From NCBI GenBank assembly GCA_963681505.1, contig OY811974.1:2496511-2560510 (forward strand): a stretch of 64,000 nt of DNA, given 5' to 3'. The number at the start of each line of letters is the position of its first letter. Positions within the stretch are counted from its first letter, which is position 1. The position numbers were made by a program, and so were the translations under genes. Shown piece by piece: positions 2,018 to 54,862 of this stretch. The notes below the pieces were generated by a model. That model was not told the origin of the DNA and did not search any database. It saw nothing but the letters and a program-made list of their open reading frames with translations. The DNA comes from Eunapius fragilis. Lineage: Eukaryota; Porifera; Demospongiae; Spongillida; Spongillidae.

Positions 2018-2555
2018 GTGCATGGAGAAAGTATTAAACAATGGAAAGCTGAATTGCCTAATTGCAAACATTGTATTTTCTGTGCCCCTTGGTGGACAAA
2101 CATGCCTCGCAGGGGATACCCAGGTCCATAGACATTAAGAAGGCGGCATAATGTGGGTGTGAAGATTGTTTGTAGCGCAACAAATAGGCTAGGCGAGACT
2201 AAAGCCATAATGGTAAGCAGATAGGATATAATAGCTAGCGCTGTTAAAGCAAAACACGGTTTTGATCCTTTAACAGATGGTGAAAGCATTTTAAACTAAG
2301 GACAGTATAGATAAAATGAAAAAAGTAATGCTATATATATACACACACACCGATACCGAGTAAAATATAAAGCTACAACGTAATACGTCAATACAGTAAC
2401 GATATATATAGAAATTGTGGCCCTTACATTAGCTATGACTAAAGCGGTGCTACTTAAGCCTTCGTATAAGATAGAACAATGGGATCAATTGCATGGAGTA
2501 CATTATATGGGAGATTTGAGTCATTATTCCAAGCAGAAATAGCATCAAATGTTAC

Positions 2556-19708
<17,153 letters not shown>

Positions 19709-32039: not shown

Positions 32040-32066
32040 GTGGCGACAAGGGTGTACAACTGCAAA

Positions 32067-33071
32067 ATGGAGTCTTCACGCGGCGTAAAACCTTTTGACC
32101 CGACGTTAGAGCAGATTGATGACTATAAAGAACGATTTGACTATTTTTGCATTGCCCATGGTATAGCCGAAGCGAAACAAAAGGCGCTATTCCTCACAAG
32201 GATCGGGCAGACGATGCATTTGAAGCTAAAGACCGGGGTGAGCCCAAAGAAACTTTCTGACCTCTCCCTTGACGAGATAGTGGTCCAACTGAAAAGTCAG
32301 ACCAGTGCTCAAACGGTTGAAATAGCAGAGCGATATCGTTTCTTTAAGCGGCTTCAAAAAGACGGCGAAGGTGTAGTGGAGTACATGTCTCAGCTGCGCA
32401 GCTTGGCGAAGACCTGTAAGTTTGAGGCATATTTGGATACCGCGCTGAGAGATCAATTTGTCTGTGGTCTGAAGGACCAACGCATTCAACAGGAGCTGCT
32501 ATGCATATGTGATTTGACGCTAACAAAGGCCTTGGACAAGAGTCGTTCAATGGAAGTTGTCCTTAAAGAGACACAGAGTATACGGGAGCTAGAAAAGCCG
32601 ACAGCAGAAGATCAACCTGAGGATGCAGCCGCCCATAGAGTGTTCACCTCCAAGAAGAACAGCTGTTACAGATGTGGGGGGGTGGGCCACTCGGCATCTT
32701 CTTGCTTCCATAAGGATAAAACTTGCAACTCCTGTGGAAAACTGGGTCACTTATCCCGAGTGTGTAGGGGCAAGTTGTCAGCAGGACATCACAAGGGAGA
32801 TACCCATCACCCAACTCGAAAAGCACATTTAGTGGAACCAGATGAGGACCTCAGTGACTGCCGAAGCAGTGATGAGGAGACACCAGTATGTGTGCATAAG
32901 GTTGCCAATAGGAATAGATATCCCAAGCTAACTGCTAAATTGGACATCCATGGGAGTGTAGTGAAATTCGAGGTCGATACAGGAGCAGAAGTATCTACAA
33001 TTCCAGCAAAAACGTACAGACAAAGGCTGAAGCAAATTACCCTGCAACCAACGTCAGTAGTGCTTCGTTAA
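32067..33071 (+). CDS. Gag and aspartic protease of the Ty3/gypsy element
   Basis: Starts at ATG 32067 (MESSRGVKPFDPT), just downstream of the primer-binding site; 334 codons to the TAA at 33069. The gag part forms the particle and binds RNA. Two CCHC zinc knuckles of the form C-x2-C-x4-H-x4-C lie at residues 200-213 (CYRCGGVGHSASSC, 32664-32705) and from residue 220 (CNSCGKLGHLSRVC, 32724-32765). The protease active site FEVDTGAEVSTI has its Asp codon at 32976. Related elements read straight from protease into reverse transcriptase, and the frame here is the same on both sides of the TAA. The stop is therefore probably a nonsense change rather than a designed gag-pol boundary. Programmed readthrough is the alternative. 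Confidence 0.88.
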   Translation: MESSRGVKPFDPTLEQIDDYKERFDYFCIAHGIAEAKQKALFLTRIGQTMHLKLKTGVSPKKLSDLSLDEIVVQLKSQTSAQTVEIAERYRFFKRLQKDGEGVVEYMSQLRSLAKTCKFEAYLDTALRDQFVCGLKDQRIQQELLCICDLTLTKALDKSRSMEVVLKETQSIRELEKPTAEDQPEDAAAHRVFTSKKNSCYRCGGVGHSASSCFHKDKTCNSCGKLGHLSRVCRGKLSAGHHKGDTHHPTRKAHLVEPDEDLSDCRSSDEETPVCVHKVANRNRYPKLTAKLDIHGSVVKFEVDTGAEVSTIPAKTYRQRLKQITLQPTSVVLR

Positions 33072-35606
33072 TACGATGGAACCATCCTTCCTACCTTGGG
33101 GGAGTTGAGAGCAAATGTTTCGATGAAAAACCAGTCAGCAGAAGGTTGTTTCATCGTTGTGGAGAATGCAGACAAGCAACTTCCTTTGCTGGGCCGTGAT
33201 TTGCTGTGTAAGCTTCGTTTGGACTGGTCTAAAATGCTGAGGAGCAATACTGCAGATGATCCCAGGATACACGCCATCCACAGTGTAAACTTGCTGAACG
33301 AGTTCCCAGATGTGATGGATGGAAAGTTGGGATTACTTAAGGGGACCAAGGCTGAAATTCAGCTGAAAGAGAGTACAGTGCCGGTGTTTTGCAAGTATAG
33401 ACCAGTGCCTTTCGCATTAAGGGAGCAAGTGGAAGAGATGATAAGGCAACAAGTCAAGGAAGGAGAACTGGAGCCAGTGGAGCGGAGCGACTGGGCAGCC
33501 CCGATTGTCATTGCAAAGAAGAAGGATGGCAATATTCGAATATGTGCGGATTTCAAAATGACTATTAATCCACATCTCTGCTCTAAGACTTTTCCCTTAC
33601 CTACTGTCGATGAAATGTTTTCCACCTTAGCAGGAGGGGAATCTTTCTCAAAGATTGATCTGGCTCGTGCATATAAACAGATGGAGGTGCTTGAAAGTCA
33701 TAGACCATTTCTCACGATCAACACACATTTGGGTCTGTTTCGCTACTGCCGGTTACCTTTTGGAGTAGCTACAGCTCCTGCCATGTGGCAGAAGGCAATG
33801 GCAGTAGTGTTGCAAGGATGCAAGAAGGTTGTCTACTACATTGACGATATACTAGTGACCGGAAAAACAAGGCAGCAACATGAACAGAATTTGCGAGCGG
33901 TCTTTCAACGTCTTCAGCAGTATGGGTTACGCATGAATCTGCCAAAGTGTCGATTTTTCCAAGACTCACTGGAATTTCTGGGCCACATCATCTCATCAAA
34001 GGGAATTAGGCCAACCAAGGAGAGAGTAGAAGGAATCCAGAATGCTGCCATCCCGCAAAACAAGTCAGAATTAAAGTCCTTTTTGGGGTTGATGACATAT
34101 AATGCAAGATTCTTGCCAGCATTAGCTAGTGTGCTTCACCCTTTATACCAATTGCTCAAGAAGGATGAAAAATGGGCATGGACTTCTAGTCATGAGAAAT
34201 CCTTTCAAGAAGCTAAGAGGTTGGTGTGTGAGGTTGTTACTTTAGTCCATTACGATGTTGACAAACCTGTAAGGGTATACTGTGACGCTTCGTCATATGG
34301 TGTTGGGGCTTGTTTAATGCATGTTATTGGAGGTCAAGAAAAACCGATTGCTTACGCTTCTAGAACATTGTCACAAGCAGAAATGAAGTATGCTCAAATA
34401 GAACGGGAAGCCTTGGCCATTATTTTTGCTGTAAAAAAATTCCATCAGTATGTATATGGCAGAGAGTTTGTGTTGGTTACAGACCATAAACCATTGTGCA
34501 CCATTTTTGGGCATGATAAAGGTATTCCAACACTAGCCACAGCACGAATGCAGAGATGGGCAATAATATTGGGGGCATATCAATATAAAATTGAGTATAT
34601 CCCAGGGGCAGAAAATGTGTGTGCTGACTGCATGTCACGGTTACCAGATCAAACGAAGTTAGCCAAGGGCACTGACATCTTAGCTATAGATATATCTTCT
34701 TTACCAGTTACTGCTACGGATATTTCTAAGGGCACGAGAAAGGACAAAGATTTGTCAATGGTACTCCAATTTGTTCGACATGGTAAATGGCCTTCGTCTT
34801 TAGCAGAAAGTTACAAACCGTATCACAGGAGACAGACTGAGTTGAGCTGTCAAGATGATTGTTTGCTGTGGGGTCAACGGGTGATTATACCCACATCTTT
34901 GCGCCATAAACTGCTTGAAGAATTACATCAAGGTCATGTGGGTATCAGCAGAATGAAAGCACTAGCAAGGAGCTATATTTGGTGGCCTGAGCTAGACAAA
35001 GATATCGAAGACTTGGCTGCTTCTTGTGATCAATGCAAAAGGGTAGCATCGATGCCTGAGTTGGCACCACGTCACCCTTGGCAGTATCCAAGTGCACCAT
35101 GGGACCGTGTTCATGTGGACTTCGGGGAATGGAATAAGAAACAGTTTTTGGTGATGGTAGATGCTTATAGCAAATGGCCTGAAGTTAGAGCCATGTCTTC
35201 AACGACTGCTCAGCATACCACTGAAGTGATGCAGGACATTTTTGCTACACATGGATTGCCTCGAATCCTGGTCTCCGACAATGGTCCACAATTTACATCA
35301 AAAGAATTCTCTGAGTACTTGGCACATAATGGTGTCCTTCACAGACGGTCTGCTCCTTATCATCCAGCTACAAACGGACTAGCCGAGAACATGGTTAAGA
35401 ACGTCAAACAGTGGCTGTCAAAGCAGAGATGTGAAGTACGGGTTGGAGTTGCCTTGTCTGAATTTTTGCGTACATACCGCAATGTCCCTCATTCAACCAC
35501 TGGGAGATCACCTGCTCAAATTCTATTTGGACGTGCTCTTCGTACCCGACTATCCCTTGTCCTACCTTGTATGAGCGAGAGGGTAAAAGAACAGTTACAA
35601 CCATAG
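33072..35606 (+). pseudogene. Reverse transcriptase, RNase H and integrase of the Ty3/gypsy element
   Basis: Open from the codon after the TAA at 33069-33071 to the TAG at 35604-35606. Reverse transcriptase has FPLPTVDEMF, FSKIDLARAYKQ, LPFGVATAPA and the catalytic YIDD (33837-33848). RNase H has YCDASSYGVGACL (Asp codon at 34284) and VTDHKPL. Integrase has an HH-CC zinc-binding region (HQGHVGISRMK to CDQCKR) and a DDE core: Asp at 35118, Asp at 35277 (SDNGPQF) and Glu at 35385, with 35 residues between the last two. Every catalytic residue I can place is present. The product would lack its own start after the upstream stop and lose the integrase C-terminus at the TAG, so I treat it as disabled in this copy. 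Confidence 0.85.
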
Positions 35607-36215
35607 GAAGAACTACCCGTACCACGAGTGTTTAGTCAAGGCGCATGTGTGTGGATCAGAGATTTTAGACCAAATGCTCCCTGAATGTTAATGCCGGGTA
35701 CTGTGCTGTCATCAGTGGGTCCATTGCACTATACAGTCAGCACCCAAGGTGGCTTCCAGAGAAAAGCACATATTGATCATTTACAGAGGCGTTCCGAATC
35801 ACCGCTACCATCAGACTTCATGGATGTATCGCAGGAGAATGAAGAGGTGATAGAACAGTTAGATCCAGGCATATCAAGGAAGCAGCTTGCACCATTGCAA
35901 GGAAAGACTTGGACAAGGCCCCAATTGGAGAAAGATGCAGCATGCTCTCAGACTGAGACAGAAATTATTCACAAGGCAGCAAAACTGGAAATGGCAGATG
36001 TTAGAACAGCCAATACCCCGGGATCAGATACCATGCTGTCTGATCCAGGTCAACAGCCATGCACCAACATAGGGAAGACTGCTGAGCAGCCCAGTGGCGT
36101 GGATAGGTCAGAAACTGGTACCATGGGCACAACTCAAGACAGCCATATGCCACCCCCTAGGAGACACTCTACTAGGCCATCAAAACCTCCACGACGTCTC
36201 ATTGAAGAGCTCTGA
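35607..36215 (+). pseudogene. Integrase C-terminal tail of the Ty3/gypsy element (after the stop)
   Basis: Same frame as the upstream pol. It begins with codons typical of the GPY/F-like end of Ty3 integrases (VWIRDFRPNAP), meets a TGA at 35682-35684, then continues with LPGTV-like, SSVGPLHYTV and RKAHIDHLQRR. After that comes a low-complexity polar tail ending at TGA 36213-36215. The strong match on both sides of each stop shows that TAG 35604 and TGA 35682 interrupt what was one protein. Confidence 0.8.
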
Positions 36216-38896: not shown

Positions 38897-40412
38897 TTAT
38901 AATTTAGTGACATTGCTGTCGGAAGTAACAACTACACTGGCCGTAGATATTACTTCATTGATGGCAAGTCTGGGCTTGACTTCATTGCCAGCGCTAGTAG
39001 TACCGGGAGGATCTTCGTGGAGAACATAAACGTTGGTGATATCGCCATGGTATTCCATTTGAGCGGTCGAAGTGGCAACCACATTGTCAATTACAATGTT
39101 TTCTGATTTTTTCATAACCATTTCGTCTCCCAGGGCTACATCGTACTTGCGGCGACGGTTTCTGCATGCACGCAAGTAGGAATGCAGTTTGATTTTAAAA
39201 TAGTTTTAAAAACAATACATGCATGTTTTACCTGCAGCATAAAATGGACAGTAGAGCCAGAACTGCAACAGTAATTACAGCAGCGGCCACACCACCGATA
39301 ACGATCCCAGCTATTGCCGCTCCGCTCAGTTCTTGAGGCTCGGAGTACGGTCCCACACTCACTACCTTAAAGCCACCCGCACTCAGGATACCACTTCTCT
39401 CCTAATGTGGGGATGCGAAGAAGAGATAGAAAGAAGGGGGGAAAAATACTTACCACTTTTTACTACCACGACTCTGCCTATAATAAAAAAGAACTTACTG
39501 TGAGTACTTGTGTGATCAACGTTGCACTTAGCACAGCGTTGGATGACTGCACTTGCAAAGTGATGACGAGACCGGCAGGGCTGTCTGCTTTGCTCCTGAT
39601 CGTTACCTTGTACTGAGCATTCGACGCTTGTCTATATGGTCACGAAAGCATTGGCACATGCGAATAAACGAATATCGCACTCTTCAAGGATGTACATACC
39701 TTGAACACCTGTTACCGGCACAATAATCGGTGAAGATACCTTCGACAATATTGACGAATCTGGTTTGGTCGCTATCGGTGAACTGCATGTATGTGTAAGA
39801 TTAATACCCGACAGCAAAAACATGCACTGCGAAGTCTGGCCATACCTGAGCTACTTTGTAATTGGCAAGTGTAACCACAACTCTATTTAGCGTATTAGAG
39901 AAAACTGTGGAATTAAATTTTTATTAATTATCCAATGCACCACAACAACAATACATTCTCAAATCAATGCATACGGCTTGATAGCATGCACACTCATAAA
40001 TCAAAGCACATTCAAGACGAAATTTGGAAAATTGGGCGATGTAATGGGTAATACAGTTTTACGCTAAGGCATAGCTCCCAAACTATATATAACAGCAAGG
40101 CAAAATCACCTGTACAAGATTTCATATCCATAGCATTAAGTATTGCCCCAGCTTCACATGAACAGATTGAATTTCCATTTACGTTAGTACAGATATGAGA
40201 GCAGCCACCGTTGTTGATTGCACATTCGTTGGTGATGGCTATGGAATGTTGATTTTTTTAAATGAACAGTTCGATCGTTTTAAACTTACAGGTGCATGTT
40301 TTGCCATCGGTTTTCAGGTAGTTTCCAGAAGTGCAATTACACGTGTAGTTTCCAGCAGTGTTAGTACATAGTTGCGAGCAGCCTCCATTACTGGTAGCAC
40401 ATTCATTTATAT
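38897..40412 (-). CDS. Gene B tail: two EGFs, SEA-like domain, transmembrane helix, cytoplasmic tail (7 exons)
   Basis: EGF exons 40290-40412 and 40110-40238 ([30 protein letters not shown]). Then three small exons, 39846-39904 (59 nt), 39700-39782 (83 nt) and 39499-39631 (133 nt), encode a compact region with [27 protein letters not shown] and [20 protein letters not shown]. This resembles a juxtamembrane SEA fold; I do not see the usual GSxxx cleavage site. Exon 39232-39401 ends with [20 protein letters not shown] then LALLSILCC, one clear membrane helix with a glycine-rich start. The last exon (38897-39161) gives a basic stop-transfer (RNRRRKY) and a tail ending SNVTKL, which fits a class I PDZ-binding C-terminus (x-T-x-L). 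Two tail tyrosines (MEYHG, NVYVLH) could be phosphorylated. No kinase or death domain. Confidence 0.85.
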
Positions 40413-43400
40413 CTGTATGGAAATTGAATCCTTGACATTATCGATATCTTTCCATTAACATATACACATATTAATAACCGAAGTAAAGCGCAGCATCAAA
40501 AAGGCAATGACAAGAAGGCTTGTTTAGTGTGTGATTTAGTAACTAGAATGCAAATTGCAAAATAATAATAAATTAGGCTTCGATTAATACCTGCATACGA
40601 ATCATGCACGTGATTGAAATTGTGTCGAAGGTGAACTTTCATGTGACATGTGAATCCGACAAGTCCGAAACTCAAAGTGTTCTTTCAGAACAACCCAGCC
40701 AGCTTGCAAGTATTGCTTCCCAAGGCGTATCTTTAGCATTACTTTTAATACTAATATCTTTGGCATTGACACCTTCAATACAATGCCTAGTTTTGCCCAG
40801 GTTAAATATCTGACCTTCCGCCGGCTCTGCCGAAGGCCCGAGGGCGTGGATCCCTAAGGATTTAACTTAGACAGTAGCATGCAACTGATTGATTAGATTG
40901 CGCGAATAACATCCACTAACCTGTAACTTGTTACTGGTACATTAATAATTTAATAAAAGCCTACATATTTTGTATCATATACACATTATTTACCAATATC
41001 TACCTAGTAGAATAGTACTTAATGTAAACGTCTACTAATCTGAACAATAATTGTATGCATTAAGAACTATAAGCCATGTGCTTTTATTTCTATGCATCCA
41101 TTCATTTTGATCATGCACTAAATCTAACGTGTTTTTTTTTTTTGAAGGGGTTAAATCTAAATTTGTAATATTTAAAATTCACCTAGGCATTTGTTGTTTG
41201 TGGTAGTATATCCAGTTGGGCAAGTACCGCATGTTGCACCTGTTCCAGGGGCCGGTACATCAGTGCAGCTTACACCAGGGAAGCAAACAAGGTCGAGACA
41301 TCCATCATAGTTCTGTCCACAAAAGGCTCCAGTCCATGCTGAGGTTGGGAAATGAGCGATTGTAATTCAAACAGGGTTTCCATGCACAGTGAGATGCATA
41401 CCTTTGGAGCACTGACAGTTGAGAACAAGTGGATTTTGATTCACATCCAGGATGCCATCCTGTGTGCATATGCCTCCATTGAGGCAACCACAGATCTGTA
41501 GCTGAGGAGTAAGCACAGAAGCAGAACCAAGTGTGTCGTTAGCAAGGAATGTCACTGTAGCATTGTTGGCATTTGTGTAGTTAGTGCTGAAGGAGTAGAG
41601 TCCACCACCATATTTGGTCAGATTGCCCTGGAGGTTGCCAATGACAGTAATATTGAACTGTTGTGTTGCAGTTACAGTAAAGTTGTACACAGCAACCGTG
41701 CCAACGTTGATGAAGAAGACCGGAGGACCAGTTATGTTTGGGGGAAAACTGACTGCAAAACAATGAAAAAACTTTCATTAAATTAAAACTTATGATAATT
41801 ATATGTACTTACATGCAATCATGTTAGACAGTGTGTTTTGTGTAATTGTGGCCAATGTTCCCAGTCCAATAGCTGCATTACCAGTTTGAAAATAGTCAAA
41901 TATGCAAGAAGGATCATTATTGCATGCCGCTGTGATGTTGCTTGAAGCATTGGCTAAAACGTCTTCCAAAAATACAGGATAATATGTTGGGTGAGAATAG
42001 TTTGCAGTAGAATCTCCATTACGGTATGTAAATAGGCTTTCACTTTGAGCAATTTGATCTGGGGAAGAATATAACATTTAACCACCTCCTTCATATAATG
42101 CCATATTGTACGTACATGATAGGCCAAATGAATACAGCTGCTTGTCAGAGGAATTGGATGGTAGTATTGTGCCATTCGGATAAATAAAATCATCATCAGG
42201 ATTTCCATTGTAGTTTCCAAGCATTCCAGTTATGTTATCTGTTGATGTTACTTCTATAGCATATATGGGAAGACCTGTTACTATTGATATAGTGACTGTT
42301 ATGCCACTGTCAAATGTTGTCTGAACAGAATTGTCAGCAACTCTTATAACACTGATGGTCTGTGTAGTATAACTTGAATCCACAGATGTCAAATCATTAG
42401 TTACATTAGAGCCATTAACAAGAATCACAGCAATATTTCCACTAGGGGCTTGTACCTGTGTGTGCAGGATTAAAGAAAGTGTGTAAGTCCGTTTAAATTG
42501 CAGAGTCAATGACTCCCTGACCTCAACATATTCTCCAGTCATCTTTACTCCAAATGCGAAGGCAACAAACTGTGTTGCAGATTGGTTTATGGGTGCAGTT
42601 CTTGCCTGGAGCATGAAATTGGTATCCAGCTGTTGCTGAAATACTTTAAATTCACCCCATCCATTGAACGTGTATGTCTTGCCATCCAAGGTGGTGAAAT
42701 GTGGATCTCCATTACCCAATGCTAATATGCAGTGCGACATGGTCATATAATAAATAAATGTCAACCCACACCCCCACACACCCTCTGATAAAGGGAACAT
42801 ACCTGCTCGTGGTGGTTTATACTCCGCACAGTTATTTGGTACTCTGCGTTCTGTATAGAGGTTGCACAGCCCTGTACCATCACAGCATGCTTGCCTGAAT
42901 GCAATGTCGTACTTCTGGTAATGAGATGGATACCTCTGCGGATGGTATAGCAGAGGTGTACTCTGGTCTACCAACAGGTATCCCACTGAAGGACTAGTGG
43001 TGGAATAAGATGTAATAAAATATATATTTAGTTTACGAATTCATTCACCTGTAACAACAATATCGAACTGGGTACAGTTCTCGTATCCTGGGTGGAACGA
43101 GCTGATAGAAACAGCGATAACGTGTGTTTGTCCTGTCCAATGTAAATTTTGAGTCCTGTAAAACTTGTCGTAGTGTACAGGGACATGCCTGCTTGATATT
43201 ATTGGTAGGAGAAGTGATTCCAAATACATTGATATCATTGGAGTAGCTTGAAATGCAGGTACTTTTTTGCTTCTGCATGTCATTTGAAGTTTTTCCAATG
43301 TTGTACACCACATTGCTCCATGGGTAGGTAGAGTTATTGCAGGCAATGCTGCCAACTTGAGATGATCCCGAAAAGTTGGCATTCGCATAGATTCCATTAG

Positions 43401-46400
43401 CATTGAACCCTACAACTGCATAGTTGAATTCAGACTGAGTCCATTGAAGTAGCTGACAGTTGTATGTGAAGATTGCATAGGACTGAAGACCATCTGTTAT
43501 AACAATGGCTTGATAAGTGTTGGTCTGGAAAATAATAAAATGAAATATGTAATCAAGTCACTAGGATAATGATGCTTACAGCATTAAGAGCAGATGAAGA
43601 TGGGTTACTTCCATGAGGATAGGGATGCACACCATTCCACTGTGCCACTAACATCCATGTTCCACTAAAGTTTGTATTAGTTGTATCTGTGATGAATGCG
43701 CTGGCACTGGTGAGTTGGTCTGATGAGAACTCTTCCACCTGATATGTTACATTGCCAGCTAATGTAAGATCATTATCACTCCAGAATGGGGCAATGACAT
43801 AGGCATTTTTGGTAATGTTGTTTGTTGTTGGAAAGAGCTGAGGAAGTCTTGATGTCCACCCAGCACCAAAGGAGATAATGCCATTGCTACCCACCTGGGA
43901 CAATTGAATTAGAATAAATATGCTATATAAATAAGCTCCTGTTTTTTGCACATACATATGCTATAGCTTGGATGGTTGCTCCAAAAGCGATACCCTGGGT
44001 GACATAAATAGGACTTGAATACCCATCATCTGTGCCATTCAGTAGTTTAGCAGTTGTTTCCAGGACCAGAAATGGCAGGAATCCTAGTGGGGAAAGTAAG
44101 TTTAGATACTGAGTGGTTTACCCTTAGTAGTGCACAAAACTATCAATGACCTTTATGACCTGAAACTAATGAAATGGACATGCTCTGCTGGTCTTTGATC
44201 TACAAATTGTATATTTGTCAGGAACATTAATTTTAATCCTGAAGTCATAAACTGTGTTAGATAAGCTGTATCAAAATGCTAGAAATATCGATGTCATTCA
44301 GTGTCCTTGAAATAGCGGGAAAATCATCAATATATCAACAATATTGATATTACCTGGAATTTAACATTAAACACATATGAATACAAATTGTGTAGCACAA
44401 ATTGATTACAGCTACTAATCCTACATATACTAGGCCTGATATCAATTGCAGTATTCAGTATCCATGTTTCTTTATTTAAAGAAAATCCAGATAGGGATAT
44501 CGATTTGAAGATATTAAAGCATCTCTCAATTGTGTTGCCAAACACTCTCTGCTGCCAAAGCCACTACCATACATTAATAGGCTATTTGATATTAGTTTCA
44601 AGAATGGTCAACTAACATGATGTCAATATCTAGATATTTATCAACACCCAGTGCGTTGCACGGCAACAACAAAATGATCTTACCACCTCATTGAGCATAC
44701 TTATTATTACCTAATTCCTAGCCATGAAACACGTGCTCATGCTTTTAACTATGTGTTTATTTAAATTGAATATACAGTAAATGGTCAGAGAAATAAAATG
44801 TCAGAATATCACTGAAATGGTAGCAATGAAAACAGATTTCATGTTTCTGAAGTAAATACTCCACAGCTGATAGTTAGATATGTGTATAATAACTAATGAA
44901 ATTGAGTTACAATGCAATTAGTTAGGTTATTCAGGTACCACACAAGCAAAGTGACATACTGGTGCAAGTTGTTCTGTCCACACCAAGCTGATACCCTGTC
45001 CTACATGAGCACACAAAGCTTCCATTGGTGTTTGTACAGTTATGGGAGCAACCTGCATTGTTTGTACTGCACTCATTGATATCTGTTTGACAAATAGATT
45101 CACATCAGTGGTATACATGGGATGCTGTGGCCATTGCTTGTCTTACCCCTACAGCCTTTGTTGTCAGAATTTAGTGAATATCCAACTGTACAGGAGCACG
45201 TGTAGCTTCCATTAGTGTTTGTACAGACTTGAGAACATCCTCCATTGCCATTGGAACACTCATTGATGTCTGCAGTAAAAAAAATTGAATCAGAATTAAA
45301 TTTACTTAACCAATGCCAGCTTACCATTACAAGTTCGATTATTGGCATTCAATGAGTAACCAGCCATACATGAGCATACAAAACTTCCATTAGTGTTTGT
45401 GCACTGTTGAGAACACCCTCCAGTGTTGGTCAAGCACTCGTTGATGTCTAAAGTGATGTGTATCATTTTAAAAATACAACCTTGGTTCCAGACCTACCAT
45501 TGCATATACTGCTGCCTGTATAACCAGTCCTGCAGGAACATGTGTAGCTTCCATTGGTGTTTGTGCATACTTGAGAACAACCCCCATTGCTGGTATTGCA
45601 CTCATTGATATCTGTTGAAAGAATCATAAGCTGATCTGTAACTGGCACTCTGGTTTCATGAATTCATGATTGATTGAAAGCACGTATTTAAAATTTGCAA
45701 TGTTATCAAATTCCCATTAATTGTAATAACCCATGGTGCTTGTCAATGATATAGCATTTGCTTGCATAGTACTCTGCACAGATCAACAACATTGTCTAAA
45801 TGAGTGACAACTAGAATGCCATGACACTTCAGTGAGAAAGTGTGTAGATGTTATTTGCATTGTCATACGTACATGAGGGAAGACTTTGTGTTGCACTTAC
45901 CAATGCATGTTTTGTTGTCCAATTGTAAGGAATATCCAACTCTGCATGAGCAGGAATAGCTACCAATTGTATTGGTACAGTTTTGGGAGCAATTTCCATT
46001 ATTGATATTGCATTCATTGACGTCTGAAGAATTCCAAATTACAACAGTATTTCTAACATTAGAGCAGTTTTGTCCTCACCAGTGCATGTCTTATAATCCA
46101 TTCCAAGCTGAAACCCCAACTTGCAAGAACACACAGCTGTTCCATTCACATCATTGCAAATGTCTGAACAGTTTCCATTATTTGTTGCGCATATGCCAAT
46201 AACTGCCAAAATAAGAATTTAAATAATGGACACTCGATCAGAAAAAAATAGCAACTGACTCACAGGTACATGTTTTGTTGTCAGCATTAAGTTTGTAAGT
46301 GGAATTACACGAGCAAATGAAGCTTCCGATGGTATTATTACAGTTTTGTGAACAATTTCCTTTTAGGATATTGCATTCATTGATGTCTAGAAGAAAGATA

Positions 46401-49400
46401 TGATTTAATGATCAGATCCCTGTTTATGTATGTAAGCATACAGCTTGCGTAATTGATACATGTGAGTGGGTCGGGGGAAACGACATGAAACCCCAAGCTT
46501 AGTTTTCTCTATAAATGGCATCAATTTCAAACCCATTGTTCGCCAGATTAATGCTATCGGGATCCTACGACATACCATATCATTTACTATTTGTGAAAAT
46601 ACATTTTGGTGTTCCTCGTAGAAAAAGCTTTTTTTTAATTTTTACTCGTAGTAATAGAGTACGTGCATGTACATCATTTTTGGCCACTAGAAATATGAAG
46701 GAGGAATCCCCTCCTCTAAACTAGCATTTTGGTCTCTTACACATGCGGGTGCCGACGTTACAGGTTCCGATACCCAACTGTCAGGTACGCAGGAGCGTGA
46801 AAATCGCTTCAACGTACATAGAAGGGTCCTTATCTCTATTGATTTGTTCAGTTCGTTAATTCTAACCATAGATTGATTAGGATTTGATAACTTCCATTAT
46901 CAAACTTCAATGCAGTTATTTAAGGAATGAGGATTAGATGCGATTATTCTCATTGCATGAAAAGGTGCTTATCATCCCTTCACACATATGTAATCATAAT
47001 TTTTGGGATCCTGAATATCCATGCACATATGTGGTGATCTTCGTAATTTTAAGGCAAAGAAAATGACTACCTGAAAACATGTGTTGCAACGCTTTCATCG
47101 ACCACTTTTGGCAAACCGGGCCTCTTATATAAGCAAATATGCATGGTCCGGGTAGAACCAATTTTGCAGCGAAAATTAACTTGGGTTCGCCGGACAACTA
47201 AGCCCGGGGATTATAATTCATGTAGATCCTTCTATTCCATTATCTAGCTTATGCACAGACATGCAACTTACTACAGCACTAACCATCGCAGCTTCGGTTA
47301 TCGACGCCTAGCAAAAAACCGTCAAGACATGAGCAAATATAGCTTCCATTGGTGTTTGTACAGAGTTGTGAACATGGGCGACCAGTAGAGCACTCATCAA
47401 TGTCTGTTGAAGTAATGATGTGCATTAGTCATGTCTAACATTCACTTCAAAACAAACCAATGCATGTTCTGTTGTCTGATGATAATAAATATCCAGGCCC
47501 ACATGAGCAAACATAGCTTCCATTGGTGTTTGCACAGAGTTGTGAACATGGGCGACCAGTAGAGCACTCATCAATGTCTGTTGAGTAATGATGTATACTG
47601 GTCATATCTAACATTCACTTGAAAACTAACCAATGCATGATCTGTTGTCTGCTCCTAATAAATATCCAGGCACACATGAGCAAACATAGCTTCCATTGGT
47701 GTTTGCACAGAGTTGAGAACATGGACGACCAGTAGAGCATTCATCAATGTCTGTTGAGTAATGATGTATACTGGTCATATCTAACATTCACTTGAAAACT
47801 AACCAATGCATGTTCTGTTGTCTGCTCCTAATAAATATCCAGGCCCACATGAGCAAACATAGCTTCCATTGGTGTTTGCACAGAGTTGTGAACATGGACG
47901 ACCAGTAGAGCAGTCATCAATGTCTGTTGAATAATGATATATATTGGTCATATCTAACATTCACTTGAAAACTAACCAATGCATGTTCTGTTGTCTGCTC
48001 CTAATAAATATCCAGGCCCACATGAGCAAACATAGCTTCCATTGGTATTTGCACAGAGTTGTGAACATGGGAGACCAGTAGAGCACTCATCAATGTCTGT
48101 TGAGTAATGATGTATACTGGTCATATCTAACATTCACTTGAAAACTAACCAATGCATGTTCTGTTGTCGGCTCCTAATAAATATCCAGACCTACATGAGC
48201 AAACATAGCTTCCATTGGTGTTTGCACAGAGTTGTGAACATGGGCGACTAGTAGAGCACTCATCAATGTCTGTTGAATAATGATATATATTGGTCATATC
48301 TAACATTCACTTGAAAACTAACCAATGCATGTTCTGTTGTCTGCTCCTAATAAATATCCAGGCCCACATGAGCAAACATAGCTTCCATTGGTGTTTGCAC
48401 AGAGTTGTGAACATGGGCGACCAGTAGAGCACTCATCAATGTCTGTTGAATAATGATATATATTGGTCATATCTAACATTCACTTGAAAACTAACCAATG
48501 CATGTTCTGTTGTCTGCTCCTAATAAATATCCAGGCCCACATGAGCAAACATAGCTTCCATTGGTGTTTGCACAGAGTTGTGAACATGGGCGACCAGTAG
48601 AGCACTCATCAATGTCTGTTGAGTAATGATATATATTGGTCATATCTAACATTCACTTGAAAACTAACCAATGCATGTTATGTTGTCTGATCCTAATAAA
48701 TACCCAGGCCTACATAGGCAAACATAGCTTCCATTGGTGTTTGCACAGAGTTGTGAACATGGGCGACCAGTAGAGCACTCATCAATGTCTGTTGAGTAAT
48801 GATATATATTGGTCATATCTAACATTAACTTGAAAACTAACCAATGCATGTTCTGTTGTCTGCTCCTAATAAATATCCAGGCCCACATGAGCAAACATAG
48901 CTTCCATTGGTGTTTGCACAAAGTTGTGAACATGGGCGACCAGTAGAGCACTCATCAATGTCTGTTGAAGTAATGAGATATATTGGTCATATCTAACATT
49001 CACTTGAAAACTAACCAATGCATGTTCTGTTGTCTGCTCCTAATAAATATCCAGGCCCACATGAGCAAACATAGCTTCCATTGGTGTTTGCACAGAGTTG
49101 TGAACATGGACGACCAGTAGAGCACTCATCAATGTCTGTTGAGTAATGATATATATTGGTCATATCTAACATTCACTTGAAAACTAACCAATGCATGTTC
49201 TGTTGTCTGATCCTAATAAATACCCAGACCCACATGAGCAAACATAGCTTCCATTGGTGTTTGCACAAAGTTGTGAACATGGGCGACCAGTAGAGCACTC
49301 ATCAATGTCTGTTGAGTAATGAGATATATTGGTCATATCTAACATTCACTTGAAAACTAACCAATGCATGTTCTGTTGTCTGTTCCTAATAAATATCCAG

Positions 49401-52400
49401 GCCCACATGAGCAAACATAGCTTCCATTGGTGTTTGCACAGAGTTGTGAACATGGGCGACCAGTAGAGCACTCATCAATGTCTGTTGAGTAATGATATAT
49501 ATTGGTCATATCTAACATTCACTTGAAAACTAACCAATGCATGTTCTGTTGTCTGATCCTAATAAATACCCAGGCCCACATGAGCAAACATAGCTTCCAT
49601 TGGTGTTTTCACAGAGTTGTGAACATGGGCGACCAGTAGAGCACTCATCAATGTCTGTTGAGTAATGATATATATTGGTCATATCTAACATTCACTTGAA
49701 AACTAACCAATGCATGTTCTGTTGTCTGCTCCTAATAAATACCCAGGCCCACATGAGCAAACATAGCTTCCATTGGTGTTTGCACAGAGTTGTGAACATG
49801 GGCGACCAGTAGAGCACTCATCAATGTCTGTTGAGTAATGATATATATATTGGTCATATCTAACATTCATTTGAAAACTAACCAATGCATGTTCTGTTGT
49901 CTGCTCCTAATAAATATCCAGGCCCACATGAGCAAACATAGCTTCCATTGGTGTTTGCACAGAGTTGTGAACATGGGCGACCAGTAGAGCACTCATCAAT
50001 GTCTGTTGAGTAATGATATATATTGGTCATATCTAACATTCATTTGAAAACTAACCAATGCATGTTCTGTTGTCTGATCCTAATAAGTATCCAGGCCCAC
50101 ATGAGCAAACATAGCTTCCATTTGTGTTTGTACAGAATTGTGAACATGGGCGACCAATAGAGCATTCATCAATGTCTGTTGAGTAATGATGTATACTGGT
50201 CATATCTAACATTCACTAGAAAACTAACCAATGCATGTTCTGTTGTCTGATTCTAATAAATACCCAGGCCCACAGAGGCAAACATAGCTTCCATTGGTGT
50301 TTGTACAGAATTGTGAACATGGACGACCAGTAGAGCACTCATCAATGTCTGTTGAGTAATGATTTAGATTGGTCATATCTAACATTCACTTGAAAACTAA
50401 CCAATGCATGTTCTGTTGTCTGATCCTAATAAATACCCAGTCCCACAGAGGCAAGCATAGCTTCCATTGGTGTTTGTACAGAATTGTGAACATGGGCGAC
50501 CAGTAGAGCACTCATCAATGTCTGTTGAGTAATGATGTATACTGGTCATATCTAACATTCACTAGAAAACTAACCAATGCATGTTCTGTTGTCTGCTCCT
50601 AACAAATATCCAGGCCCACATGAACAAACATAGCTTCCATTGGTGTTTGCACAGAGTTGTGAACATGGGCGACCAATAGAGCACTCATCAATGTCTATTG
50701 AGCCATGATGTACATTGGTCATATCAAACATTCACTTGAAAACTAACCAATGCATGTTCTGTTGTCTGATCCTAATAAATACCCAGGCCCACAGAGGCAA
50801 GCATAGCTTCCATTGGTGTTTGTACAGAATTGTGAACATGGGCGACCAATAGAGCACTCATCAATGTCTGTTGAGCCATGATGTACATTGGTCATATCTA
50901 ACATTCACTTGAAAACTAACCAATGCATGTTCTGTTGTCTGATCCTAATAAATACCCAGGCCCACATGAGCAAACATAACTTCCATTGGTGTTTTCACAG
51001 AGTTGTGAACATGGGCGACCAGTAGAGCACTCATCAATGTCTGTTGAGTAATGATGGATATTGGTCATATCTAACATTCACTTGAAAACTAACCAATGCA
51101 TGTTCTGTTGTCTGCTCCTAATAAATACCCAGGCCTACATGAGCAAACATAGCTTCCATTGGTGTTTGTACAGAATTGTGAACATGGGCGACCAGTAGAG
51201 CACTCATCAATGTCTGTAGAAGTTATGATGTATATAATATTGGTCATATCTAACTTTCACTTGAAAACTAACCAATGCATGATGTGTTGTCTGATTCTAA
51301 AAGATATCCAGGCCCACATGAGCAAACATAGCTTCCATTGGTGTTTGTACAGAATTTTGGACATGGGCGACCAATAGAGCACTCATCAATGTCTGTTGAG
51401 TAATGATACATATTGGTCATATCTAACACCTTGAAAACTAACCAATGCATGTTCTGTTGTCTGATCCTAATACATATCCAGGCCCACATGAGCAAACATA
51501 GCTTCCATTGGTGTTTGTACAGAATTGTGGACATGGGCGACCAGTAGAGCACTCATCAATGTCTGTTGAGTAATGATGTATATTGGTCATATCTAACATT
51601 CACTTGAAAACTAACCAATGCATGTTCTGTTGTCTGCTCCTAATAAATACCCAGGCCCACATGAGCAAACATAGCTTCCATTGGTGTTTGTACAGAATTG
51701 TGGACATGGGCGACCAGTAGAGCACTCATCAATGTCTGTTGAGTAATGATGTGTATTGGTCATATCTAACATTCACTTGAAAACTAACCAATGCATGTTC
51801 TGTTGTCTGCTCCTAATAAATACCCAGGCCCACATGAGCAAACATAGCTTCCATTGGTGTTTGTACAGAATTGTGGACATGGGCGACCAGTAGAGCACTC
51901 ATCAATGTCTGTTGAGTAATGATGTGTATTGGTCATATCTAACATTCACTTGAAAACTAACCAATGCATGTTCTGTTGTCTGCTCCTAATAAATACCCAG
52001 GCCCACATGAGCAAACATAGCTTCCATTGGTGTTTGTACAGAATTGTGGACATGGGCGACCAGTAGAGCACTCATCAATGTCTGTTGAGTAATGATGTGT
52101 ATTGGTCATATCTAACATTCACTTGAAAACTAACCAATGCATGTTCTGTTGTCTGCTCCTAATAAATACCCAGGCCCACATGAGCAAACATAGCTTCCAT
52201 TGGTGTTTGTACAGAATTGTAAACATGGGCGACCAGTAGAGCACTCATCAATGTCTTTAGAAGTTATGATGTATATAATATTGGTCATATGTAACTTTCA
52301 CTTGAAAACTAACCACTGCATGTTCTGTTGTCTGATCCTAATACATATCCAGGCCCACATGAGCAAACATAGCTTCCATTGGTGTTTGTACAGAATTGTG

Positions 52401-54862
52401 GACATGGGCGACCAGTAGAGCACTCATCAATGTCTGTTGAGTAATGATGTATATTGGTCATATTAACATTCACTTGAAAACTAACCAATGCATGTTCTGT
52501 TGTCTGCTCCTAATAAATACCCAGGCCCACATGAGCAAACATAGCTTTCATTGGTGTTTGTACAGAATTGTGAACATGGGCGACCAGTAGAGCACTCATC
52601 ATCATTGTCTGTTGAGTAATGATGTGTATTGGTCATATCTAACATTCACTTGAAAACTAACCAAGGCATGTTGTGTTGTCGGATCCTAATAAATACCCAG
52701 GCTCACATGAGCAAATATAACTTCCATTGGTGTTTTCACAGAGTTGTAAACATGGGCGACCAGTAGAGCACTCATCAATGTCTGTAGAAGTAATGATGTA
52801 TATTATATTGGTCATATCTAACTTTCACTTGAAAACTAACCAATGCATGTTCTGTTGTCTGATCCTAACACATATCCAGGTCCACATGAGCAAACATAAC
52901 TTCCATTGGTGTTTGAACATAGTTGTGAACAAGCACCATGTCTGTTAGAGCACTCATCAATGTCTGTAGAGGAGAGATGGTAGACATTTCGTCCATTAAA
53001 TAACCATTGCAGGTTCAATTGTCAGCGCTTAGTGCATAACCAGGCTGACATGAGCAAATGTAGCTTAATTAGGCTTAAACCTTTATTAAGTTACCAGTGC
53101 AGATTCTTTTAGTATCATTCTCCTTGTAGCCATCCTTACAATCGATAAAACACATCGATGTATTATCTTTGCATATCGATTCGCAAATAGCCTGTGTGCA
53201 ATTTGAGCCTCCTGTGTTGATCAATGGCAATGATATTTTGCACAGTATATCGCTATTTTTTATTGTACGTTACCATGTGTAATATTCAGGACAGTGTAAT
53301 CATCACAGCAGCAAGTGCAATTAGTGTCCATTTCTGTACAGGTTACTGTGCATCCTGTTTCTCCTGAAATAAAATGAAAGCAATTCCTTGAATTGTGACT
53401 TTTGGGTTGTAAACACTACATAATTGTATTAAAACTAGACTTATTTTATTTCGTATTCTCACATGCATTGTGTATCGCCACACGACTGATACATATTTTC
53501 AACTTGACTTTTATACATGTACATACTACAAATTACTGGTCACACATTGTCAATAAACAATTCCAGTAATAGGACACCTAAGTGGAAATGCTTTGTGCGC
53601 TCCATTTTTTATGTCATAATGGTATAGGACAGGGCTTCAATTTTTAAATATACATCTATCTATTTCATTAACCATTGAACTTCATTTACAATGAAGTTTT
53701 GTTGATTATAATTTTATTTTTGACGATAGGTTGTATGCTTCTTAATATCTAGTCAAGCCATTATGGCCTCGTTCCCAGGCCGTACTTTTTATTAAAGTTA
53801 AATGGGGGTAGCCGTTACCAAGAAACTTGGTAATCGTATACTGTAGTAATTTTGTCTGTACATTTTCCGTATACTACTTTCTCAACGCTAGCTTTTCCTG
53901 ATCTCAGGTCGTCGCGCCTGATGGATTTCACAACAAGCATACCATGTACGTAACTAAGTATAGTTGTGTCATTTTTGTATGCACGTGTGTATTTTGAAAT
54001 GAATCACTATGAAATTCTAGGTAGCTGATTCATGTACAGAAGCTTACTCTATATGAGGTAGCGATCCAAGGGGATACACGCAATAGCTAGCTCGCACGTT
54101 CCCAATAATTATGACTGATCATATTGGTCTCATTACCAGGCCGTATTTTTTTAGATTGGAAACGAAATAAACATATCCCGGCCATTGAAGAGAAGGAAAA
54201 GAGCTTCCTCTTGTTTGGCCTTGAGTGTAAGGTTTAGTTGGTGAACACACGAAAGAGAATCAGCAACCGCTTCTCCACAGAATAAGCCATCACTCGATCA
54301 AACTAATACAACTACATTATAATACATATTTCTTGGTAATGAACTTCTGGAAACTACGGCCTGGGAACGAGGATAGCAACACTTATTATTACGAAAGCGG
54401 CCATTACTACGTAACTTCTCGTGGCGAAGACAGGATGGGAGGGGGGGGGGAGGGGGGGGCAAGCCTGGAAAGCAACGCCTCAAAACAACACGTGGACCTA
54501 ACACGTCATAATACAAAGCGCGAATACAGCCTGTCAGTGAGCTGCATGGTAGTGATCGATTCAACTAGGGTATAGTTTGCCAGTGTTATAGACCTAGAGA
54601 CACGGCAACTACCAGTGGCGGATCCAGGTGGGGGTGGCGGGGGTATACCCCCTCCCGCAAAGTTAGAAATTAAATATTCATAGCTACAAGGGGCTGATGA
54701 TATAAATATATGTCGCGCTGATGATATAAATACAACGAAAACGCGCCGAAGTAACATGATAACAGTAAAAAAGCGGCTGGGGCGAAGCCCCAGACCCCTC
54801 GTACATCTTCCTCTCTTACGCGCAATACTTCGTAGCCACGCCCAAACCATGATTATTAACGC

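Follow-up and report, generated by a model that had tools for sequence, protein, structure and literature searches.

Exons and introns are reportedly homogenized together within the single gene encoding tenascin-X, and concerted evolution has reportedly shaped the EGF-TM7 receptor EMR2, in which few EGF domains are homogenized between two genes. The EGF domains of tenascin stayed conserved between rodents and primates (PMC2267704), the coding variable number tandem repeats (VNTRs) of LPA KIV-2, DMBT1, and NEB are built from units of an estimated 5104, 4059, and 10,553 bp, with LPA polymorphic between people (PMC11201333), and the 102-aa PIGSFEAST repeat of Drosophila dumpy lies inside one large exon (PMC2930355). 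Here, we describe a tandem array of EGF exons (array A, in gene A) from the sponge Eunapius fragilis, located in a window of 64,000 nt (C4:2496511-2560510) of a genome assembly of 218,937,333 bases in 24 contigs. We estimate at about 0.75 the probability of an overall explanation in which array A represents satellite-like DNA within a coding gene, produced by recombination among units, purifying selection, and takeover by particular unit types, and giving rise to an EGF rod.

An earlier annotation of the window from its letters alone (the sequence-only reading) had reported 33 EGF exons at 47284-52963 with a spacing of mostly 173 bp, and its coordinates proved exact. Using a DNA anchor at the exon start, a search blind to cysteines, we located exon starts running from 52963 down to 47284 (n = 33), with 24 of the 32 start-to-start steps measuring exactly 173 bp and the remaining ones 170, 174, 174, 175, 175, 179, 179, and 182 bp. 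Tandem Repeats Finder, applied to the window, similarly delineated a repeat at 47327-52971 with a period of 173, 32.5 copies, 94% matches, and a score of 9583. Exon lengths were 120 nt (31 exons) or 123 nt (2 exons), i.e., multiples of three in 33/33 cases, and all 32 introns were of the GT..AG type, with lengths of 50, 52, 53, 54, 55, or 59 bp and a GTTTGT donor in the intron of unit 32. The tandem unit thus contains an intron, and each exon is frame-neutral, being in phase 1-1 and a multiple of three. Every exon was open and encoded six cysteines, so that the absence of stops, frameshifts, and lost cysteines noted earlier holds for 33/33 units in this assembly. Two terms require adjustment: units described as nearly identical do share a mean identity of about 94%, but just 2 of 496 unit pairs are identical, and “macrosatellite”, which designates repeat units of kilobase size, does not suit a 173-bp unit of satellite scale. 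Overall, the original observation is confirmed, and its extent somewhat exceeds what was first described.

Exons and introns of array A have diverged to the same extent. A gap-optimized alignment of the 32 units that are followed by an intron gave a mean pairwise divergence of 0.062 for exons and 0.063 for introns (0.062 and 0.086, respectively, with a plainer alignment), while synonymous (pS) and non-synonymous (pN) divergence reached 0.087 and 0.054 in the gapped alignment. This is the pairwise exon-intron comparison that the sequence-only reading had named as a check, and it bears out the statement that introns are as conserved as exons. Consensus introns of different unit types, on the other hand, differed by 49-61% in 9 of 10 pairs (the tenth, array A against one type from array B, by 3.8%), and are therefore not kept alike by a common sequence constraint. 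Because exon and intron divergence are equal in array A, the copying of whole exon-intron units is well supported; that this copying occurred by unequal exchange, as first proposed, is plausible, although gene conversion is also possible. Neighboring units were more alike than distant ones (Mantel r 0.32, 0/2000 permutations), with successive differences of 2, 0, and 1 edits among units 5-8, and the nearest neighbor of a unit was found at a median of 4 edits. Turnover of array A is recent in evolutionary terms, yet not extreme, since the median distance between adjacent units is 8 edits (31 comparisons) and such neighbors are not generally identical.

Selection keeps the frame and the cysteines of these units, as established statistically. 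None of the 61 distinct variants observed in the 31 exons of 120 nt removes a cysteine, and the lone “stop” among them arises from scoring base changes singly, as no unit contains a stop. By comparison, 10.1 stop or cysteine losses were expected, and 0/5000 simulations were as clean. Exon lengths are restricted to 120 or 123 nt, whereas the 50-59-bp introns show non-triplet changes. Together with the 1-1 phase, this supports the earlier claim that gain or loss of units keeps the frame. More broadly, pN was below pS in all five arrays tested (array A and the four arrays presented below), with pN/pS ratios of 0.63 for array A, 0.28 for array B, and 0.37 and 0.33 for the two arrays of gene C. At the motif level, two N-x-S/T sites were found in 33/33 units of array A vs 0.57 expected from cysteine-fixed shuffles. 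The signature of calcium-binding EGFs consists of a [DN]-x-[DN]-[EQ]-C start plus an Asx-hydroxylation motif; the latter was detected in 33/33 units and the calcium-binding start in 32/33, which qualifies array A units as calcium-binding EGFs on motif grounds. Three consecutive consensus units also matched EGF stretches of solved proteins, e.g., ADGRE5, LRP2, NELL2, and fibrillin.

Comparable arrays are found elsewhere in the genome. Gene B, located in the window 36 kb from gene A, bears an array of like build, which is older (divergence of 0.191 for exons and 0.270 for introns, pN/pS 0.28) and composed of mixed unit types, including a 12-unit block repeat (divergence of 0.119 at lag 12 vs 0.187-0.256 at other lags from 1 to 15). 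Gene C (C4:2.926-2.949 Mb) includes 99 exons recognized by EGF pattern in the 50 kb examined, and its two arrays are C174, with 55 units of about 174 bp, and C178, with 38 units of about 178 bp. The C174 count combines 54 units detected by EGF pattern and one cysteine-losing unit, as the pattern skips unusual cysteine spacing; arrays A, B, and C178 are free of an internal gap such as the one left by this skipped unit. Divergence in C174 was 0.062 for exons and 0.074 for introns, and position dependence was detected in both C174 and C178 (0/2000 permutations each). When the cysteine-losing unit of C174 was included in a retest of selection, 3 stop or lost-cysteine variants were counted vs 13.2 expected (0/5000 simulations). 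N-x-S/T sites were in clear excess in array B (2.29 per unit vs 1.06 expected) and in smaller excess in C178 (2.00 vs 1.62). Finally, a chromosome 3 array (C3:9659000-9666999) contains 20 exons at exact 174-bp steps, of which 19 were analyzed (divergence of 0.057 for exons and 0.010 for introns, with 14/19 introns identical). This region has an inverted copy at C3:9753300-9761299, 99.925% identical over 7970 bp and bearing the same EGF array, and the two mirrored arrays, about 91 kb apart, align without a unit-sized gap. The pair may be palindromic, or it may stem from a retained haplotype or from a fold in the assembly; as the copies are thus not necessarily alleles, we dropped them as an allelic test of copy number. 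The relation between exon and intron divergence varies among arrays, as age differences would produce for A, C174, B, and C178, but not for the chromosome 3 array. The genome harbors several arrays of different unit type, each apparently remade separately while selection removes broken units.

The C-terminal anchors of these genes, i.e., the region following the array, are closely related. Anchor pS was lowest between A and C (0.118), compared to 0.181 for A-B, 0.175 for B-C, and 0.307-0.329 for all comparisons with a further paralogue, gene D (C4:10.35 Mb), and 26/729 bases differ between A and C across their six membrane-proximal EGF exons. The arrays themselves follow another pattern. Consensus exons of array A differed from those of C174, C178, and the chromosome 3 array by 0.375, 0.325, and 0.383, respectively, vs 0.057-0.062 within these arrays and within array A (0.191 within B), and its consensus introns differed by 0.510 from C174 and 0.547 from C178. 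Unit A is related to one array B type (B_LLGAD; intron 0.038, exon 0.117), and differences between the two are concentrated in the first 32 alignment columns (14/32 vs 6/144 elsewhere), i.e., the 5′ loop is unlike, while the 3′ part and intron are alike. By their consensus units, different unit types took over in different paralogues, and arrays appear to have been rebuilt faster than the rest of the protein.

Outside the array, gene A probably encodes a membrane protein in which the EGF repeats are followed by NIDO, VWD, and MUC4-type C8 domains and a short tail (Table 1). Pfam E values were 1.8e-13 and 3.7e-09 for PF06119, 8.3e-12 for PF00094, and 6.9e-11 for PF23263. No kinase or other signaling domain was identified in the tail of ~90 aa, for which no Pfam family passed the cut-off and the best match was CYYR1 (E 0.075, below cut-off), so that “receptor”, as used in the sequence-only reading, is a loose term. 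In the spliced region between NIDO and VWD, AMOP (PF03782) was not matched; a search of the whole genome for this domain also returned none, although this is a weak search, as 14 control genomes likewise yielded none. No mucin-type Pro/Thr/Ser tandem repeat was encountered in gene A up to 53.4 kb, the repeat being EGF, and a Pfam scan of 53078-53269, one of two candidate N-terminal stretches, gave no match. A search with the second NIDO exon recovered 17 database proteins, of which two, encoded on contigs of 43.8 kb and 1.37 Mb, share 69% identity with it and the other 15 share 39-54%; the gene A anchor therefore has relatives elsewhere.

Table 1 Features of gene A and its neighboring paralogue B (positions in the 64,000-nt window).
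Feature	Position	Strand	Description
Two short cysteine-rich open stretches, candidate N-terminal exons	53078..53415	-	Directly upstream of array A in gene sense
Array A	47284..52963	-	33 EGF exons, 120 or 123 nt, phase 1-1; 50-59 bp introns between
Six non-array membrane-proximal EGF exons	44960..46386	-	One-to-one with six in paralogue C
NIDO domain (PF06119), two exons	43048..43960	-	Second exon continues into a cysteine-rich stretch without Pfam match
Open stretch with VWD domain (PF00094)	42081..43040	-	Pfam
MUC4-type C8-3 domain (PF23263)	41802..42077	-	Pfam
Open stretches between C8 domain and last EGFs	41175..41774	-	Larger one conserved in B, C, D; no Pfam match
Two further EGF exons near membrane	40110..40412	-	EGF
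Hydrophobic segment read as transmembrane	38897..39401	-	Tail of ~90 aa to stop codon; read from sequence
Array B, neighboring paralogue	6323..11150	-	28 EGF units of several types; higher-order repeat of 12 units
C-terminal anchor of paralogue B	2548..6262	-	EGF, NIDO, VWD and following exons

Additional features were observed in and beyond the window. Between paralogues A and B lie retroelement open frames at 32040-36215 (+), with a zinc knuckle, reverse transcriptase, RNase H, and integrase in an order that we take to be Ty3-like, and a further NIDO domain, spanning two open stretches at 17284-19199 (-), which was considered as a part of gene B but could not be joined to it. Elsewhere, a single match at C20:3299410-3299535 shares 89% identity with the exon portion of the C178 unit type. 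More EGF-exon clusters, mostly diverged and unevenly spaced, occur at C10:5.07-5.18 Mb, including one short run of near-identical exons at 174-bp steps, and four more at C4:10.16-10.36 Mb have a partly regular spacing of ~175-179 bp, with one of them adjoining paralogue D.

Several observations weigh against the overall explanation proposed here, or limit its reach. Position dependence was not detected in array B (1369/2000 permutations as high), and in C178 introns (0.111) are clearly more diverged than exons (0.062), although not more than pS (0.133). Simple copying also fails to explain the chromosome 3 array, in which introns differ by 0.010 vs 0.086 for synonymous sites. Two C174 units depart from the six-cysteine pattern, one having lost a cysteine (C4:2945003-2945125) and the other having gained one, for a total of seven (C4:2940827-2940949), and C174 displays no N-x-S/T enrichment (1.13 vs 1.06 expected). 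Conversion between paralogues may have reset the divergence of the A-C anchor and made it look too young, because anchor identity is patchy (2/360 differences in proximal EGFs 3-5 vs 19/246 in EGFs 1 and 6). Finally, the array data come from one assembly of one individual, the inclusion of all array A units in a transcript is predicted from genomic sequence, and comparing the upstream open frames of paralogues did not reveal the N-terminal end of gene A among the matches listed.

Alternative explanations can be evaluated against the same data. An old array A, with unit likeness kept by selection on EGF exons alone, would be compatible with the pN/pS ratios < 1 in the arrays of genes A, B, and C, but is very improbable when array A introns are as alike as its exons while introns of different types are about half different, and we rejected selection on exons alone for array A on the basis of this intron identity. 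Gene conversion among a stable number of units, rather than gain and loss, is a more serious candidate as the main source of homogeneity, which we regard as possible without favoring it: the alignment of the two mirrored copies on chromosome 3 has no gap the size of a unit, and the likeness between unit A and the B type is confined to the 3′ part and intron, as a conversion or exchange tract would leave. Unit numbers and types nevertheless differ among paralogues (33 in A, 28 in B, 55 + 38 in C), and therefore numbers do change. Another route to the array differences would be that ectopic recombination among the paralogues placed one anchor beside different arrays, as opposed to growth of each array in place. 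While arrays of paralogues do differ, such a joining is possible but, in our view, rather doubtful, as the patchy A-C anchor identity and the kinship of array A with its neighbor B instead of C (3.8% between A and B_LLGAD introns) have to be set against the six one-to-one EGFs that remain in the same order in the A and C anchors, with no breakpoint mapped. Diversifying selection on stalk length or composition, acting as an individual or kin label in allorecognition, seems improbable. Sponges have allorecognition, and array content differs between close paralogues; yet pN was lower than pS in each of the five arrays tested, the distal part of gene A, whose N-terminal end was not found, gave no recognition domain, and among the literature matches listed, no title or abstract start joins sponge EGF proteins to allorecognition.

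We consider it unlikely that unit number in array A reflects a collapsed or inflated assembly. The E. fragilis assembly (218.91 Mb, 23 chromosomes and a mitochondrion, with an alternate haplotype assembly available as GCA_963681495.1) is reported to have 802 gaps, with 212 misjoins or missing joins corrected (PMC12616128), and a retained haplotype or a fold could account for the near-identical inverted pair on chromosome 3. Conversely, neither the window nor the 50-kb region surrounding gene C contains a run of N, the HiFi data (184.53 Gb from 18.74 million reads; PMC12616128) correspond to ~9.8 kb per read, which is longer than the 5.7-kb array, and most units differ from each other, which aids correct assembly. 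A 79-aa database protein, from an ENA contig of 747,667 bp, also bears on this question: it corresponds to unit 25 of array A if one base is missing, with no mismatch, whereas the next best units require at least 5 mismatches. Given this exact match to unit 25 alone, the protein most likely derives from another assembled copy of array A, in which the one-base loss would be either a frameshift carried by the alternate haplotype or an error of assembly. The earlier statement that no unit is frameshifted hence stands for the assembly analyzed here, but may not extend to this second assembled copy, which can also be counted in favor of an artefact.

Under the explanation that we favor, combining recombination among units, purifying selection, and unit-type takeover, the repeat unit is one calcium-binding-type EGF exon plus one minimal intron, and phase 1 at both exon ends, as read from the sequence, leaves the frame intact when units are gained or lost. 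Recombination between units, i.e., unequal exchange with or without gene conversion, would add, remove, and homogenize whole units. Purifying selection, as the simulations show, clears those with stops, frameshifts, or lost cysteines, and separate unit types have come to prevail in separate paralogues, as their consensus units show. The product would most likely be a long glycosylated EGF rod holding the N-terminal end off a membrane-anchored NIDO-VWD-C8 module, with unit number setting the reach of the rod. Polymorphism of unit number between individuals is a fair prediction from such a structure, while a role of the stalk in self/non-self difference, also raised initially, is speculation, and the graded adhesion suggested alongside it is a hypothesis. 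Even more broadly, and only as a tentative and rather unlikely proposal taken as a whole, the outer part of these proteins might be a fast-renewing compartment in which satellite-type recombination builds an EGF rod from a different unit in every gene, and possibly in every individual. Stalk length and glycan pattern would then form a heritable individual-specific surface feature while the membrane-near module stays constant.

These arrays place satellite-type recombination inside coding genes, with a 173-bp unit about as short as an alpha-satellite monomer. The presence of several arrays of different age in one genome makes it possible to measure turnover, homogenization, and purifying selection against each other, and if unit number does vary between individuals, it would provide a simple genotypable length variable through which a role in adhesion or recognition becomes directly testable. 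By title and abstract, no such array has been reported in sponges among the literature matches listed, a coverage from which subscription journals are mostly absent.

Among known systems, array A resembles tenascin-X in the homogenization of exons and introns inside one gene, as its title reports for the latter, and EMR2, again by title, in the concerted evolution of an EGF-bearing membrane receptor, although EMR2 is not a long array. Unlike tenascin-X, array A comprises 33 units of ~173 bp with minimal introns, and its paralogues bear different unit types; the available tenascin passages include no comparison of paralogue arrays of different unit types (PMC2267704). The coding VNTRs of LPA KIV-2, DMBT1, and NEB are similar in that the unit holds both exons and introns and unit number alters protein length, but the sponge unit is a ~173-bp EGF unit, and length polymorphism is shown for LPA while being a prediction here (PMC11201333). 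The sponge unit contains an intron, whereas the dumpy PIGSFEAST repeat has none (PMC2930355). MUC4-type membrane mucins share NIDO, VWD, and a transmembrane end with gene A, along with a repetitive part, which is central in mucins; gene A differs from them by the lack of an AMOP match and by a distal EGF array with N-glycosylation sites in place of Pro/Thr/Ser repeats (PMC9080433). Taken together, both concerted exon-intron evolution and coding VNTRs of the multi-exon type have precedents, and what is new lies in how small the unit is, how many arrays occur in one genome, and how the unit type changes from one close paralogue to another.

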